Shown: piece after piece, positions 24,848 through 31,309 of the stretch
How positions within the stretch are numbered: the first letter of the stretch is position 1
Layout of the letters: every line of letters starts with the position of its first letter
DNA from: Elusimicrobium minutum
GTDB lineage: Bacteria > Elusimicrobiota > Elusimicrobia > Elusimicrobiales > UBA9959
Assembly: GCA_020723765.1 (NCBI GenBank)
Contig: DYIF01000002.1
Span: forward strand, 1 to 64,000
Length of the DNA stretch: 64,000 nt
Reading direction: 5' to 3'
The notes under the pieces: generated by a model
The model's database searches: none
Seen by the model: only the letters and a program-made list of their open reading frames with translations
What the model was told of the DNA's origin: nothing
Translations under genes and position numbers: made by a program

Positions 24848-25546
24848 TTATGTTTTTTTAGAAAGTTTTTCGGATATTTTTTTGTTCCTTTCGTCTATTT
24901 TTTTTCTTACGCTATCGAAATATTTTTCCAATTTTTCAGCCCTTTTCTTTTCTTTTTCCATAATCTTTGAAAGCCTTTCGTTTATCTTTATTTCCGTTCT
25001 TGAGACATAAGCTGTCTGGCCGGGATTTAAAGTTTTAAATTCTTCTCCTTTCCCAACCTCCACAACTCCTTTAAATAAACCTATTTCCGACGCTTTATCG
25101 TCCGATATTATTGAAAAAGCCGTTCCTCTCACTCCGCAAACCGCGGTGGGAGTTCTTACCGAGTATTTTTTAGAGCCTAATTTTTTTATAAAAAAAGTGG
25201 CTTTGCCGTAAAGATAATCGGTAAAAGATTTTTCTTCTTCCGCGTATAAGTTTTTTACGCCGAGCAACTTATCCCAGAAAGAAAGAGAGTTTGGAGAATT
25301 TTGATCCGATATTACGAATTTGCTGTTTTCGTAAACGACTACAAGCCCGATATCTTCAATTATAAGCTCTATCTCGGAGTTTTTTTGAGTAGCCACTTCG
25401 TAGTTTTTTCCTATAGAATCTCCCTCTTTTACGACTATCTTTTCTTTTTTATCGTTTAAAAAATCCGCGTTTCCTTTAATTTTATATACGACGGCATCGG
25501 CATAAATATTAGAACAAAACAACAAAAAAGTTAAAATAAATTTCAT
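24848..25546 (-). CDS. Secreted FecR-domain protein
   Basis: 232 residues with a signal peptide (MKFILTFLLFCSNIYADA). The FecR domain occupies residues ~20-165 and has its hallmark RTPTAVCGVRGTAFSI near residues 130-145, then ETGLF/GVVEVG-like strands and NPGQTAYV. The last ~60 residues are a highly charged helical tail, likely a coiled coil (MEKEKKRAEKLEKYFDSVRKK). No FecA or sigma factor is adjacent, so this is a periplasmic or envelope FecR module rather than an iron-signalling regulator. Neighbouring lipoproteins suggest an envelope role. Confidence 0.8.
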   Translation of the reverse strand: MKFILTFLLFCSNIYADAVVYKIKGNADFLNDKKEKIVVKEGDSIGKNYEVATQKNSEIELIIEDIGLVVVYENSKFVISDQNSPNSLSFWDKLLGVKNLYAEEEKSFTDYLYGKATFFIKKLGSKKYSVRTPTAVCGVRGTAFSIISDDKASEIGLFKGVVEVGKGEEFKTLNPGQTAYVSRTEIKINERLSKIMEKEKKRAEKLEKYFDSVRKKIDERNKKISEKLSKKT

Positions 25547-25566: not shown

Positions 25567-26604
25567 TTATTTTATCTTTGCGTTTATAAAAAAATCTCTT
25601 ACCGAAATTATTTCCACATTATCTTTTTTAGAAAGCAAAGCAGATATATCTTGAGATTTTCCTCTATGCAAAACGATTTCAAAAACCGCGGTATTTTTAT
25701 CGTAATTTTTCATAACGGAAGTTTTAACCGCCGGTATATTTCTCAAGTATTTTATTATATCCTGGACCATATTAATCGAATCGACATTGGCCAGTTCCAG
25801 CTTTATAATTTTCTTTTGGTTATAAAAACTTATTATGGAATTTTTTATATCCGGATAGACCTTTCTAATACAGTTTATTATCGCGTTATTTCTCGCATCG
25901 GTATCGGTAACTCCTATACCGCCGTTTGCCGAATTAAACCCACCGACCATTTCTCCATCTCTTGTTTTTAGGTTTCCGGTTATGGAACAAGAGTAAGAAT
26001 AAAAGCCTCCCAAACCTTCCGATGTGTTAAATTTGGATGAAACCTTGGCTTCTATTATAATATCGGATAGATTATAATCGCTTACGACTCTAAAACTATC
26101 CTTTTTAAGTTCCGCTAAAAGCCCGTCGTTTGCAAAGCTTATCTCTTTATTGTCGATATCGAGAATTTGGGAATATATTACCGGACTTCCTATTCTCTCT
26201 ACATCGTTTTCTATCCTTTTAAGTTTATTAGCTAAATCTTCTTTTCTAACATAAGCCTTAACTTTTGTCTTATAAAAATTATTTTCGGTATATTCTTTCA
26301 ATATCTCATATTTTTCGACATAACCTTCGGTTTTAGACGTAATCTCGTCGTCTATAAGAATAGACTTGGAAACCATAGATTCGCCGCTTATATAAACGCC
26401 TACGACCAAATGAATGGCGTTTTTCAAGGCGTCCGAAAGGGAAGATTGTTTTGCTGAGCTTAAATTATTATCAGTTATGGGAGCCATACCGGTCGCTTCA
26501 ACTATCTCCACATCATAAGAAGAATTCAAATTGGACTTTTTCACATTACCGGAACAACCAGCAAAAACAAAACAAACAACCGCGAGACAATAAAATCTCT
26601 TCAT
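25567..26604 (-). CDS. Lipoprotein, LPP20/FlgO-related architecture
   Basis: 345 residues from the ATG at 26604, chosen because GGAGG lies five bases before it; a start seven codons earlier lacks this. Signal peptide MKRFYCLAVVCFVFAGC ends in a lipobox-like FAGC. The following region (VEATGMAPITDNNLSSAKQSSLSDALKNAIHLVVGVYI) resembles the ATG-x-A...A-x-x-x-A-x-x-x-A pattern of LPP20 and flagellar-assembly-T-like domains. Later segments look like the beta-alpha modules seen in such proteins (IIEAKVSSKF; SFYNQKKIIKLELANV). It probably sits on the periplasmic side of the outer membrane. It is followed by FecR and preceded by a second LPP20-type lipoprotein. Confidence 0.65.
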   Translation of the reverse strand: MKRFYCLAVVCFVFAGCSGNVKKSNLNSSYDVEIVEATGMAPITDNNLSSAKQSSLSDALKNAIHLVVGVYISGESMVSKSILIDDEITSKTEGYVEKYEILKEYTENNFYKTKVKAYVRKEDLANKLKRIENDVERIGSPVIYSQILDIDNKEISFANDGLLAELKKDSFRVVSDYNLSDIIIEAKVSSKFNTSEGLGGFYSYSCSITGNLKTRDGEMVGGFNSANGGIGVTDTDARNNAIINCIRKVYPDIKNSIISFYNQKKIIKLELANVDSINMVQDIIKYLRNIPAVKTSVMKNYDKNTAVFEIVLHRGKSQDISALLSKKDNVEIISVRDFFINAKIK

Positions 26605-26640: not shown

Positions 26641-27090
26641 TTATTCCAAAACTTTTAATCCCATGTCTTTCAAAGCGCTTTTATAAAGCCTTAAAACTAC
26701 GACGCATCCGTCATCGTTTGTCCACTCTGTTCTTACGACTTGAGCTCCCTTTATCATAGCGTCTATTTTGGTGGCAAGCAAAGAATCCGTCTCTATGGCT
26801 TTCTCCACCGTAATTCCACCCTCTAACTGAACTCCTTTTATTATGCTAAGCATATTATACTGAGCGTTAACTATGGCCGCGTTTCTAGAGGTAGCCATTC
26901 TCTGTGTTTTATTATCAAGCGTCTGGTCCGCCGCACCTATGCCTCTGGCAAATATATAATTTTTGGTGACTCCTTCCTCAACCCATTCTCTCTCTATCTC
27001 ACCGCCTTTAGAAACCGTTCCTTTATCCGCTTTTGTTCCGCAAGAAGCCACAAAAGCGGATACCAACAACACAGCTAAAAGCTTTTTCAT
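26641..27090 (-). CDS. LPP20-family lipoprotein
   Basis: 149 residues. Signal peptide MKKLLAVLLVSAFVASC has the lipobox VASC. The mature protein has the LPP20 pattern: FARGIGAADQTLDNKTQRMATSRNAAIVNAQYNMLSIIKGVQ, with repeated alanines on one helix face, and a C-terminal strand CVVVLRLYKSAL. LPP20-type lipoproteins are outer-membrane associated, some linked to flagella or curli-like secretion, but no function is established here. GGAGG precedes the ATG. It is the first gene of the leftward operon and is driven from the promoter at 27126-27154. Confidence 0.8.
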   Translation of the reverse strand: MKKLLAVLLVSAFVASCGTKADKGTVSKGGEIEREWVEEGVTKNYIFARGIGAADQTLDNKTQRMATSRNAAIVNAQYNMLSIIKGVQLEGGITVEKAIETDSLLATKIDAMIKGAQVVRTEWTNDDGCVVVLRLYKSALKDMGLKVLE

Positions 27091-27125
27091 ATTATCCTCC
27101 TATTATCCTAAGATATTCTAAAACT

Positions 27126-27154
27126 ATTTTACAATTAAAAATATTGACAGTCAA
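27126..27154 (-). promoter_or_regulatory. Promoter of the LPP20/FecR lipoprotein operon
   Basis: On the minus strand TTGACT (27149-27154) and TAAAAT (27126-27131) are separated by 17 bases, one mismatch each. Its -35 box overlaps that of the divergent ABC promoter inside the palindrome TTGACAGTCAA (27144-27154), so the two promoters face away from one shared site. Confidence 0.65.
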
Positions 27155-27172
27155 TTCTTTTTTTTGTATATT
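27144..27172 (+). promoter_or_regulatory. Promoter of the GldA/F/G-like ABC operon
   Basis: TTGACA (27144-27149, perfect consensus) and TATATT (27167-27172) are separated by exactly 17 bases, the best promoter match seen in the window. Transcription would start near 27179, just before a large hairpin in the leader. It shares the -35 palindrome with the divergent lipoprotein promoter. Confidence 0.75.
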
Positions 27173-27190
27173 TAGTTACATAAGGTTCTT

Positions 27191-27231
27191 TAAAAGTTTA
27201 AAGATAAACTTAGGTTTAATTTAAACTTTTA
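27191..27231 (+). promoter_or_regulatory. Leader hairpin upstream of the ABC operon
   Basis: A perfect 12-bp inverted repeat TAAAAGTTTAAA (27191-27202) / TTTAAACTTTTA (27220-27231) encloses a second 5-bp stem TAAAC/GTTTA (27205-27209, 27214-27218) with loop TTAG. It lies within the predicted 5' untranslated region, 26 bases before the ATG at 27258, and has no T-run after it, so it is not a standard terminator. It could be an operator for a dimeric regulator or an RNA structure near the ribosome-binding site. Confidence 0.55.
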
Positions 27232-27257
27232 TCTCATAAAAATCAATAGGAAAAATT

Positions 27258-28163
27258 ATGATAACGACCGAAAACATAACTAAAAGTTACGGTAATTTTA
27301 AGGCTTTAAAAGGAATATCTTTTAAAGTTCCTTCTAACAATATAACCGTTTTGCTAGGTCCTAACGGAGCCGGTAAGACGACCACGCTTAGAATACTTGC
27401 CGGATATCTATATCCGGACTATGGAAAAGTGGAATACTTCGGCCAAAAATACGACGAAAATCTTGAGTTTAAAAAACTAATAGGATATATTCCGGAAAAC
27501 AATCCGGTATATGAAGACCTGGAAGTAACGGAATACCTTGAGTTTGTCGCTAAATCCTATTATCTTGGCAAAAAAGAAATAAAAATAGCAGTAGAAAGAT
27601 GCGCGTTAAAAGAAGTTTTGGGTAAAAAAATAGGAAATCTTTCAAAAGGATATAAACAAAGGGTATCTCTGGCAAAAGCCATACTCCATAACCCCCCTAT
27701 CCTTCTTTTGGACGAGCCTACTACCGGGCTTGATCCCAATCAAGCCTATCAAACAAGGGAACTGATAAAAGAACTAAAAAAAGACAAAACCATATTGATT
27801 TCCACTCATATATTAAGCGAAGCGGAGGCGATATGCGATAATATATTGATAATAAACAAAGGAGAAATATGCGCAAGCGGAGAAAAAGAGTCTCTAATAA
27901 AACAATACTCCAAAAATTCTTACGTTTTAAGATTTGACGGCGATATTGAAAACAAATTCATCGAAATGGAAGGAATAAAAGAAATAACGGCGAAAAAAGA
28001 AAATGGCGAAACCGAATTTATTATAGAGTTTGAAAATGATAAAGACATGAGAAAAGATATTATAAATTTCGCATATGAAAAAAAATTGCCTTTAATAGAG
28101 TTTTATAAAAATAAGGTCACACTTGATAAAATATTTTCAAAGATAACGAAGGAGCGGTTATGA
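27258..28163 (+). CDS. ABC transporter ATP-binding protein (GldA-like)
   Basis: 301 residues. Walker A GPNGAGKTTT near 36-45, Q-loop GYIPENNPVYEDLEV, signature LSKGYKQRVSLAKAIL, Walker B PILLLDEPTTGLDPNQ and H-loop STHILSEAEAICD. The C-terminal extension after residue ~215 is as in ABC-2 transporters. With the permease, GldG-like and DUF4340 genes it makes a GldAFG-type system. These occur widely outside gliding bacteria and probably move an envelope component; no specific substrate can be named. The Shine-Dalgarno (AGGAAAA) is weak. It overlaps the permease gene by four bases. Confidence 0.93.
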   Translation: MITTENITKSYGNFKALKGISFKVPSNNITVLLGPNGAGKTTTLRILAGYLYPDYGKVEYFGQKYDENLEFKKLIGYIPENNPVYEDLEVTEYLEFVAKSYYLGKKEIKIAVERCALKEVLGKKIGNLSKGYKQRVSLAKAILHNPPILLLDEPTTGLDPNQAYQTRELIKELKKDKTILISTHILSEAEAICDNILIINKGEICASGEKESLIKQYSKNSYVLRFDGDIENKFIEMEGIKEITAKKENGETEFIIEFENDKDMRKDIINFAYEKKLPLIEFYKNKVTLDKIFSKITKERL

Positions 28164-28876
28164 GAGCGGAAAACATAAAGACACTTGTATCCAAAGAGCT
28201 AAAACATTATCTAAATACCCCCCCGTCTTATGTTTTAGCTTCCGTATTTTTGCTTTTATGTGGATATTTTTTCGCTCAACCATTATTTTTAATAAACCAG
28301 GCCAATCTAAATTCGCTTACCGATATAGCGCCTTTAATACTGACCTTTTTCGCTCCGGCTCTTAGCATGAAGCTTATAGCCGAAGAGAAAAAGACCCAAA
28401 CGATAGAAATTCTTCTTACTATGCCTTTTTCGGAAGAAGAGATAATAATATCCAAATTCATATCCGCTTCGTTAATAATGATAACTACGATATTCTTAAT
28501 GTTTATCTACTCGATTACTCTTTATTTTTTATCAAAACCAGATACCGGCCATATTTTGGGAAGTTATCTTTCTTTACTCTTTACCGCGGTTTGTTTCCTC
28601 TCGATAGGAGTTTTCTCATCAACCCTTTCTTCAAGCCAGATTAACGCATTTATATCGGGATTTGCCATATCATTCTTTTTCTATTTATGCGGAAAGGTGA
28701 CGTTCTTTTTGCCTCTTTATTTACAGGAGGCGGCAAACTACATAGGAATAGATTCTCACATATCCAACATGGCCAGGGGCGTAATAGACTTTAGAGATAT
28801 AATATATTTTTCGTCCATATCTTTTATTTTCATCTATTTGTCGATAAATAAACTTAAAAATATGAGAGTGAGGTAA
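28160..28876 (+). CDS. ABC-2 type permease (GldF-like)
   Basis: 238 residues with six predicted membrane helices. N-terminal VSKELKHYLNTPPSYVLASVFLLLCGYFF, then LTFFAPALSMKLIAEEKKTQTIEILLTMPFSEEEIIISKF are the signature of GldF/ABC-2 permeases (the MKLIAEEK-x-x-x-T-x-E-x-L-L segment). It couples to the upstream ATPase (ATGA overlap) and is followed one base after its stop by the GldG-like gene. Substrate unknown. Confidence 0.92.
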   Translation: MRAENIKTLVSKELKHYLNTPPSYVLASVFLLLCGYFFAQPLFLINQANLNSLTDIAPLILTFFAPALSMKLIAEEKKTQTIEILLTMPFSEEEIIISKFISASLIMITTIFLMFIYSITLYFLSKPDTGHILGSYLSLLFTAVCFLSIGVFSSTLSSSQINAFISGFAISFFFYLCGKVTFFLPLYLQEAANYIGIDSHISNMARGVIDFRDIIYFSSISFIFIYLSINKLKNMRVR

Positions 28877-28877
28877 T

Positions 28878-30446
28878 ATGAAAAAGAATTTATCGGTTTA
28901 TTTGTATATAATAATCGCGATAATAGCCAATCTTATATTTTTTAATCTTAATATAAGATTGGACCTTACAAGAGACGGTATATATTCCCTGTCTAAAGGG
29001 ACCAAAAACATACTAAAAAAAATAGACGATAACCTTTTTATAGACCTATACTATTCGAAAGAACTTCCCGTCCAGATTGCGGCCAATAAAGAATATGTAA
29101 ATTCCATTCTTAAAGATTATTCGAGATATTCGAAAGGAAAAATAAAATTTTCTTCTTTTAAAATAGACGATTCTCCTGGATCTAAAAAATCGGCTATTGA
29201 GGAAGGAATAACTCCCGTAAGATTCGACATAGTATCCAAAGAAAAATTCGAGCAGAGAGAAGGTTTTTTAGGCTTATCTATAAGATACAGAGAAAAAAAA
29301 GAGGTTATGCCTTTTATTTCCGACATATCCAATTTCGAATATGAAATATCCTCAAAAATAAACATGCTGATAAACGAAAAAAAGAAGAATATATATTTTA
29401 TAACCGACGCTCAGGCGATATCTTCATACAGGCTTAACCCGGAAATAAAAGCCAAGCTTTCAAACAATTACGAAATCAAAGACGTCTCTTTGTCCGAACT
29501 GTATAAAACGACCGAAGAAATAACCGGATGTTTTATAGGCCCCTCATCCCCGTTAGACGAAAAATCGCTATTTTATTTAGACCAGATTCTCGTAAGAGGC
29601 TCAAAAATATTTCTGGCATACGACTCAAGATATACCTCCATGGATAGTTTTTTTACGAGAGAAAATAAAACCGGAGTCGAAAAAATTTTAGAAAAAAACG
29701 GCATAAAAATAAAAAACACTCTTATTACCGATAAAAACTCTCAGGCCATTCAAATAGCCTTCAGACAGGGCCCTTTTATAGTTACAAACATAGTCAAATA
29801 TCCTTATTTTATAATCACTGATAATCTGGATAGGAACAACCCAACCACCAGAGACATATATTCGCTTACTCTTCCTTTCGCCTCTCCCATAGAATACTCA
29901 ACCGGTACCGAAAAAACATTAACCCCTCTCATAAAAACTTCCGATTATAGCAGGGCCAAAAAAGAAAACTCGTATATAAACATAAATCCTTTTCAAGACT
30001 ACTCACCGTCGGATGACGACTTAAAAGGGCCGTTTAACGTCGCATTAATTTTTAAAGGCAAAATGGAGTCTTACCTCGAATCTATTCCCAAAGAATTGGA
30101 AAAAGATAAAAAAGAAAAAGTTTCTCTAATAAAGAAAGCCGAAAAAGAGAGTTTGTTATATATGGTTTCCACATCCAAATTTTTATTTCAAGAAAACTTA
30201 AATTACGAAAATGCTCAGTATTTTATAAACATCGTCAACTACCTTTCTCAAGACGAGGACCTTATAACTATAAGGCCCAAAAAAGCCGGCTTTATACCGC
30301 TTAAAGAAATAAACGATAACGCAAAAACCGCGATAAAATATTTCAATATTTTCTTGCCGATAATAATGGTAATAAGTTTCGGAATATACAGATGGAAGAA
30401 AACTCAAAAAAATATAAGGAAAGCGGTTTCCGAGTATAAAGATTAA
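28878..30446 (+). CDS. GldG-like ABC-associated membrane protein
   Basis: 522 residues. N-terminal transmembrane helix, then the GldG extracytoplasmic region: RLDLTRDGIYSLSKGTKNILKKIDDNLFIDLYYSKELP near residues 25-65 is typical for the family, followed by a DUF7088/GldG-like fold with YEISSKINMLINEKKKNIYFITD. A second C-terminal helix (residues ~490-510) is followed by a basic cytoplasmic tail (RWKKTQKNIRKAV). It likely receives or holds the transported component in the periplasm. It lies between the permease and the DUF4340 gene, as in many GldFG loci. Confidence 0.9.
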   Translation: MKKNLSVYLYIIIAIIANLIFFNLNIRLDLTRDGIYSLSKGTKNILKKIDDNLFIDLYYSKELPVQIAANKEYVNSILKDYSRYSKGKIKFSSFKIDDSPGSKKSAIEEGITPVRFDIVSKEKFEQREGFLGLSIRYREKKEVMPFISDISNFEYEISSKINMLINEKKKNIYFITDAQAISSYRLNPEIKAKLSNNYEIKDVSLSELYKTTEEITGCFIGPSSPLDEKSLFYLDQILVRGSKIFLAYDSRYTSMDSFFTRENKTGVEKILEKNGIKIKNTLITDKNSQAIQIAFRQGPFIVTNIVKYPYFIITDNLDRNNPTTRDIYSLTLPFASPIEYSTGTEKTLTPLIKTSDYSRAKKENSYININPFQDYSPSDDDLKGPFNVALIFKGKMESYLESIPKELEKDKKEKVSLIKKAEKESLLYMVSTSKFLFQENLNYENAQYFINIVNYLSQDEDLITIRPKKAGFIPLKEINDNAKTAIKYFNIFLPIIMVISFGIYRWKKTQKNIRKAVSEYKD

Positions 30447-30457
30447 AGGAGAGTAAT

Positions 30458-31309
30458 ATGAAAGAAAAAACTTTAATACTCGTTATAACGTCCCTTATAA
30501 TCGCATACTTTTTAATAGCGGCATTCAACAAACCCAAAACATATTCAAATACATTTTTTTCGGACAAAATAAATACAAATAAAATAAATCAAATTTATAT
30601 AAAAAACAAAGACAACGAAATATTACTTGAAAAAACAAAGGACTTGTGGTTTTTAAAAACTCCGTATGAGTACCGTGCCGATAACAGGGAAATAGAAAAC
30701 ATTCTGGATAAGATTTCAAACTCAAAGTTATTCGGACCATTGACCGACAAAAAAGAAATATACGATAGGTTTGAAATATACCCGGATTCCGCGCCGGTTA
30801 TAACATTAAAAGGGAATAAAGAAATATCCTTTATTACCGGCAAAGCCACGATGGATTATCAAGGAACATTTATAAAATTTACAAACTCAAAGGAGATATT
30901 TGAGGCTAAAGGGATATTCCCATTCGATTTCAAAAAAAAATATGAGGATTTTATATATCCTAAAATAATGGAATCGGATGAAAAAGAATTAACCCAAATC
31001 TTAATAAATTATTCCGGTAAAGAATATTCCGACTCAAAATCGCAAGAAAAATGGGTTAAATCCGAAACACAATCCATAATAGATCTGTTAAAAGAAATAA
31101 GATTTTCAAAAATAGAAAAAGGAGAAAAAGACAGCCAAAAAACAAATCTGGAAATAATTTTAAAGTCTCCAAACGGAGAAGAAAAAATATTATTTAAAAA
31201 CGGAAAAAATTATTTATCTTACAAAAACGGATATAAATTTACAATAGATGAGCCCAATTCAAAAAAAATAGAAGAGTTAATAAATAAGATAAAAGCGGAA
31301 TCCAAATAA
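30458..31309 (+). CDS. DUF4340-domain protein
   Basis: 283 residues with one N-terminal membrane helix and an exported remainder. The DUF4340 features are INQIYIKNKDNEILLEKTKDLWFLKTPYEYRADNREIENILDKISNS near residues 43-90 and TGKATMDYQGTFIKF near 127. DUF4340 proteins usually follow GldG genes and are assumed to work with the ABC system. A GGAG ribosome-binding site is present and the gap to the GldG-like gene is 11 bases. It converges on the large peptidase with 29 bases between, without a visible terminator. Confidence 0.88.
   Translation: MKEKTLILVITSLIIAYFLIAAFNKPKTYSNTFFSDKINTNKINQIYIKNKDNEILLEKTKDLWFLKTPYEYRADNREIENILDKISNSKLFGPLTDKKEIYDRFEIYPDSAPVITLKGNKEISFITGKATMDYQGTFIKFTNSKEIFEAKGIFPFDFKKKYEDFIYPKIMESDEKELTQILINYSGKEYSDSKSQEKWVKSETQSIIDLLKEIRFSKIEKGEKDSQKTNLEIILKSPNGEEKILFKNGKNYLSYKNGYKFTIDEPNSKKIEELINKIKAESK

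Follow-up and report, generated by a model that had tools for sequence, protein, structure and literature searches.

The 167-bp intergenic gap between a leftward lipoprotein operon and a rightward ABC transporter operon, situated in the window (the whole stretch of 64,000 nucleotides analyzed here), appears to hold two interpenetrating sigma70-type promoters. We put the probability of this reading at roughly 80%; the pair would be used by one polymerase at a time, with both operons expressed and the palindrome between them a by-product. Read directly from the sequence, the rightward promoter consists of TTGACA at positions 27144 to 27149, a 17-bp spacer, and TATATT at positions 27167 to 27172, and the leftward promoter consists of TTGACT from 27154 to 27149, a spacer also of 17 bp, and TAAAAT from 27131 to 27126 (in plus-strand letters, AGTCAA at 27149 to 27154 for the -35 and ATTTTA at 27126 to 27131 for the -10). 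A promoter scanner scored the pair 11/12 and 10/12. One base pair, the A/T at 27149, is common to both -35 hexamers, and the palindrome TTGACAGTCAA at 27144 to 27154 is the two inverted hexamers merged, all 11 of its bases being accounted for by them. It has arms of 5 bp and, in the window, one outer A/T pair that is absent from G001, the other genome of the genus returned by the searches. The -35 element of the rightward promoter is the left-hand one and that of the leftward promoter the right-hand one, so that the promoters interpenetrate, each -35 being placed largely inside the spacer of the opposite promoter. Every base of the elements quoted in an initial annotation of this DNA was confirmed on reading, as were their positions and 17-base spacers; its description of the promoters as back-to-back is loose and makes too little of the overlap, as they interpenetrate. 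Because the usual distance from a -10 element to the start is 7 bp, transcription would be predicted to begin at about 27119 (leftward) and 27179 (rightward), about 60 bp apart.

Leading the leftward operon is a gene that encodes a small lipoprotein of 149 amino acids (26641 to 27090, minus strand), for which no Pfam family was matched at an E value of 0.001. It is followed on the same strand by a gene for a second lipoprotein (25567 to 26604), which is FlgT_N-like by a marginal match (28.7 bits, with a cutoff of 28.8), and one for a FecR-domain protein (24848 to 25546; PF04773). The lipoboxes of both lipoproteins were recognized by eye. The rightward operon, on the plus strand, opens with an ABC transporter ATPase (27258 to 28163; PF00005) and continues with an ABC-2 type permease (28160 to 28876; PF12679), an ABC_transp_aux/DUF7088 protein (28878 to 30446; PF09822 and PF23357), which we take to be GldG-like, and, as the last gene, a DUF4340 protein (30458 to 31309; PF14238). 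From these assignments, envelope functions may fairly be inferred for both operons. No DNA-binding regulator was apparent among the nine neighboring proteins scanned with Pfam. The 149-amino-acid lipoprotein was matched in 57 of the 59 family genomes, mostly at 70 to 84% identity, with weaker homologues extending to the sister family, and in G001 and G005 it is better conserved than the adjoining ABC genes. An A+T-rich hairpin (27191 to 27231, plus strand; z of -3.0) falls in what would be the 5' leader of the ABC transcript; it lies outside the promoter pair, has one copy in the genome, and was not seen in the aligned gap of G001, and a search of the locus from 27000 to 27400 against Rfam, with E values of up to 1, gave no family.

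A single other genome of the same genus (g1) was returned by the searches, namely, G001, in which the ABC protein is 57% and the lipoprotein 82% identical to its counterpart in the window. The gap of G001 is shorter (105 versus 167 bp), but its palindrome, both of its -10 elements, and the length of its rightward spacer are identical to those of the window; the leftward spacer is 18 bp long, compared with 17 bp in the window. When the two gaps were aligned with each other, all 23 promoter-element bases were identical, versus 46 of the 81 other aligned bases (57%), a difference with a Fisher P value of 2.6e-5 for what is a comparison of two sequences only. A first count (background of 71/141; P value of 1.0e-6) was dropped, since it had set some coding bases of G001 against the gap of the window. 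Comparison supports both putative promoters at the locus.

Beyond the genus, the leftward lipoprotein promoter would seem to be old, and it is found across the family. The 57 genomes with a lipoprotein match provided 55 upstream regions, including that of the window; G013 (contig edge) and G069 (partial match) were left out, the second copy in G012 was dropped, and other extra copies of the lipoprotein gene fall outside this count. With the promoter defined as TTGACA or TTGACT, 17 to 18 bp, and then TAGAAT, TACAAT, or TAAAAT, it was present in 49 of these regions, upstream of that lipoprotein gene (TTGACA in 44 and TTGACT in 5; TAGAAT in 33, TACAAT in 12, and TAAAAT in 4), the spacer being 17 bp in 42 of the 44 TTGACA cases, and by this definition it was missing from the remaining 6 (G006, G007, G016, G017, G023, and G072). 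The clade appears to use sigma70-type consensus promoters, as TTGACA-16/18-TATAAT has 72 sites in six clade genomes, compared with 9 for the reversed pattern. Each direction at our locus has a -35/-10 pair, the core elements of the two overlap at 27149, and the identity between the window's genome (G000) and G001, together with the recurrence of the leftward promoter in 49/55 regions, points to selection on the elements. The initial claim of two promoters, one for each operon, is thereby borne out within the genus, and the assignment of the locus to the overlapping divergent sigma70-type promoters, a kind already known, would seem to be well supported.

Conservation of the palindrome in related genomes had been proposed as a check, and here the outcome is divided, with the palindrome identical in G001 but the exact sequence found at this locus in those two genomes only. 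A head-to-head ABC gene was detected by tblastn at 4 of the 30 lipoprotein loci searched (L048 to L077, flanks included to a maximum of 1500 bp), those of G000, G001, G005, and G027; further upstream regions, of at most about 430 bp, were outside this adjacency test, and 17 loci of ABC ATPase relatives from a contig search (23 to 36% identity) were excluded from the conservation analysis. In G021, the start of an ABC-like gene is readable by eye within the 200-bp flank. In this genome and G027, the two genomes from which the geometry in genus g13 is taken (a third, G013, being unreadable at a contig edge), the -35 elements abut (TTGATA-TGTCAA), both promoters score 11/12, and a TG stands just ahead of the rightward -10. 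In G005, the -35 elements are 5 bp apart and the leftward one lies to the left of the rightward one, a true back-to-back arrangement, and the rightward promoter is weak (9/12, with no T at position 6 of its -10). Overlap or abutment of the -35 elements is thus retained in two of these three genera, and the overlap is not general, because in G005 the elements are separated and the rightward promoter is poor. The leftward -35 reads TTGACT in 3 of the 5 genomes that have a head-to-head ABC gene (G000, G001, and G005) and in 2 of the 44 others that have the leftward promoter (G010 and G029). We considered whether the change from TTGACA to TTGACT was driven by the needs of the rightward promoter and rejected this idea, since the -35 elements of G005 do not overlap.

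In the mechanism that we favor, two outward-facing housekeeping promoters would interlock through a -35 inverted repeat with one common base pair. A single holoenzyme would bind in either orientation, clear the promoter, and leave the site to the other, so that both operons would be expressed and would be coupled only via competition, which would become relevant if one direction were strong. The palindrome would be a by-product of the two -35 boxes and not an operator, and the ABC promoter would overlap an older lipoprotein promoter in g1 and abut it in g13. That the elements work as promoters, with steric exclusion and weak coupling, is what we infer from the sequence. Exclusive binding is likely because a polymerase at one promoter would be expected to cover the -35 of the other, and PMC12825309 gives a steric rule by which two polymerases are not accommodated at once on bidirectional promoters; the initial statement that two polymerases cannot occupy both promoters is thus likely to hold.

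It does not follow that the operons are mutually exclusive, as the initial annotation had suggested, because the exclusion of simultaneous binding is not the exclusion of expression. A true switch, in which heavy activity at one promoter silences its partner and the operons alternate, is in our view unlikely. The overlapping cores and near-consensus -35 elements would be compatible with one, and it is reported that raising one direction can repress the partner (PMC12825309) and that overlapping divergent promoters together with a regulator form a switch (PMC4207663). Of the Escherichia coli bidirectional promoters tested (n = 5), however, all had too little basal activity for competition, and one direction had to be raised substantially before its partner was repressed (PMC12825309). 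Because such promoters show little effect of exclusion at basal activity, we expect both operons to be expressed here, with competition that is mild at most. The switch of pLS20, according to PMC4207663, needs a regulator that affects its two promoters unequally, and none was apparent among the nine neighboring proteins here.

Three described arrangements resemble the one found in the window. The bidirectional promoters studied by Warman, Grainger, and colleagues (PMC12825309 and PMC10268837) are likewise a single stretch of DNA with two orientations, occupied by one polymerase at once and giving two divergent RNAs, but they share the -10 element, with starts 7 to 25 bp apart and most often 18 bp apart, and separate divergent promoters are not counted among them. 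Here, it is the -35 elements that merge, whereas the -10 elements are separate (27126 to 27131 and 27167 to 27172), and the predicted starts, about 60 bp apart, fall outside the 7- to 25-bp range around a common -10. The Pc and Pr promoters of pLS20 are also divergent, with overlapping cores at which one polymerase should exclude the other, but in the reading favored by their authors, the -10 of one coincides with its partner's -35; of the two promoters, one is weak and dependent on RcoLS20 (PMC4207663). In the window, by contrast, -35 lies on -35, both promoters are near consensus, and there is no DNA-binding regulator among the nine neighbors scanned. The locus leaves the understanding of divergent transcription unchanged; it offers a concrete promoter pair with comparative support for this lineage, a -35-to-35 overlap that is distinct from the studied -10-centered bidirectional promoters, and a potentially clean setting in which to test whether polymerases compete at two near-consensus promoters. 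We make no claim that this -35-to-35 geometry is absent from the literature.

In the tetA/tetR system, overlapping divergent promoters are both controlled by an adjacent regulator gene and an operator. Like it, the locus described here is a compact pair of divergent promoters set between two transcription units; unlike it, the locus showed no DNA-binding regulator among the neighboring proteins scanned, and its palindrome does not recur as a site. The second suggestion of the initial annotation was a dimeric regulator on TTGAC-N-GTCAA that would control both operons jointly, and this we consider distinctly improbable. The 5-bp inverted arms are perfect and are identical in G001, and an operator would show the same conservation in both g1 genomes. 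A related word whose gap is 2 bp, TTGACNNGTCAA, has 56 sites in eight genomes, compared with 14 for the reversed control; of the 11 sites inspected, several appeared by eye to sit on or next to the -35 of genes whose products are exported, and g13 carries TTGATATGTCAA at this locus. Nevertheless, each base of the palindrome is already required by a -35 hexamer. As a word, TTGACNGTCAA is unremarkable because it occurs once in the genome of 2.1 Mb and its reversed control equally once, so that placement and conservation carry the weight; it is present in 24 of the 59 family genomes and is not enriched in them (40 sites versus 67 for the control), and the second site in G001 falls within a coding gene. 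Nor does TTGACNNGTCAA exceed its control in G001 (3 versus 6), and in 1.6 Mb, the 2-bp gap accounts for 6 sites and other gaps for 0 to 7, which does not make it clearly higher. The palindrome was not found to recur at other regulated promoters, and both the sequence and the spacing of the arms differ between genera, the half-sites overlapping by 1 bp in g1, abutting in g13, and lying 5 bp apart in reversed order in G005.

As a separate observation, 8 of the 11 TTGACNNGTCAA sites that were inspected by eye lie on or close to the -35 of a gene (G000 C21:37665, C4:17549, C12:7134, and C2:50229; G001 C3:20405; G005 C7:38561; G021 C1:18155; and G013 C25:14553), and several of these genes encode exported proteins that share an Ile/Val-Pro-x-Pro-like stretch after the signal peptide. 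It is possible that TTGACNNGTCAA is the operator of a regulon of exported proteins. The extension of this idea to our locus is more doubtful than the joint regulator itself: an envelope or exported-protein regulator would read TTGAC-N(1-2)-GTCAA over -35 elements, its dimer silencing both promoters here and single ones elsewhere, and the 1-bp gap would be a variant of the commoner 2-bp site.

Least probable of all is that the leftward promoter alone is real and the rightward match fortuitous in A+T-rich DNA (about 35 to 36% G+C in two contig pieces). In its favor, lone promoter-like matches are common and not above chance (52 in 15 kb; shuffle mean, 60.0), and G005 has a poor rightward promoter. 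Against it, the rightward promoter of the window scores 11/12, its hexamers and 17-bp spacer are unchanged in G001 against a background of 57% identity in the other aligned bases of the gap, and in g13 a separate rightward promoter, with a TG ahead of the -10, also reaches 11/12. It is the combination that exceeds chance: when the region (the gap plus 30 bp on either side) was shuffled 20,000 times with dinucleotides preserved, overlapping -35 pairs with a total of at least 21/24 consensus matches appeared in 3 shuffles and those with at least 20/24 in 31.

Overlapping -35 pairs were also surveyed in 1,600,657 bases from five genomes (G000, 800,657; G001, 400,000; G027, 260,000; G021, 120,000; and G013, 20,000), in which a crude open reading frame caller gave 122 divergent gaps. 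Pairs of at least 20/24 were found in 4 of these gaps, compared with a mean of 0.3 in 30 shuffles, and two of the four are the present locus in G000 and G001, which was known beforehand. Among tandem gaps, the count was 2 of 315 (shuffle mean, 0.23); among convergent gaps, it was 1 of 59 (shuffle mean, 0.17). A class of -35-sharing promoters specific to divergent genes was rejected, since tandem and convergent gaps show a similarly small excess. A smaller run that is contained in this survey covered 31 gaps of the window's own genome and gave pairs scoring at least 19/24 in 3 of them (mean in shuffles, 0.4).

One further divergent gap, on the same contig (G000:C15:86992-87196; L143:2992-3196), has a rightward promoter of 12/12 and a leftward promoter of 11/12 whose -35 elements overlap by 5 bp (TTGACAA); it lies between genes for an HtrA-like protease and an exported protein, both named by eye. 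The leader lying downstream, at G000:C15:87062-87200 (L143:3062-3200), gave no Rfam match near a gathering score, and no similar DNA was found in the 58 other family genomes searched. It is strongly structured (133 nucleotides, -43.4 kcal/mol, z of -3.45) and possibly represents an undescribed small or leader RNA.
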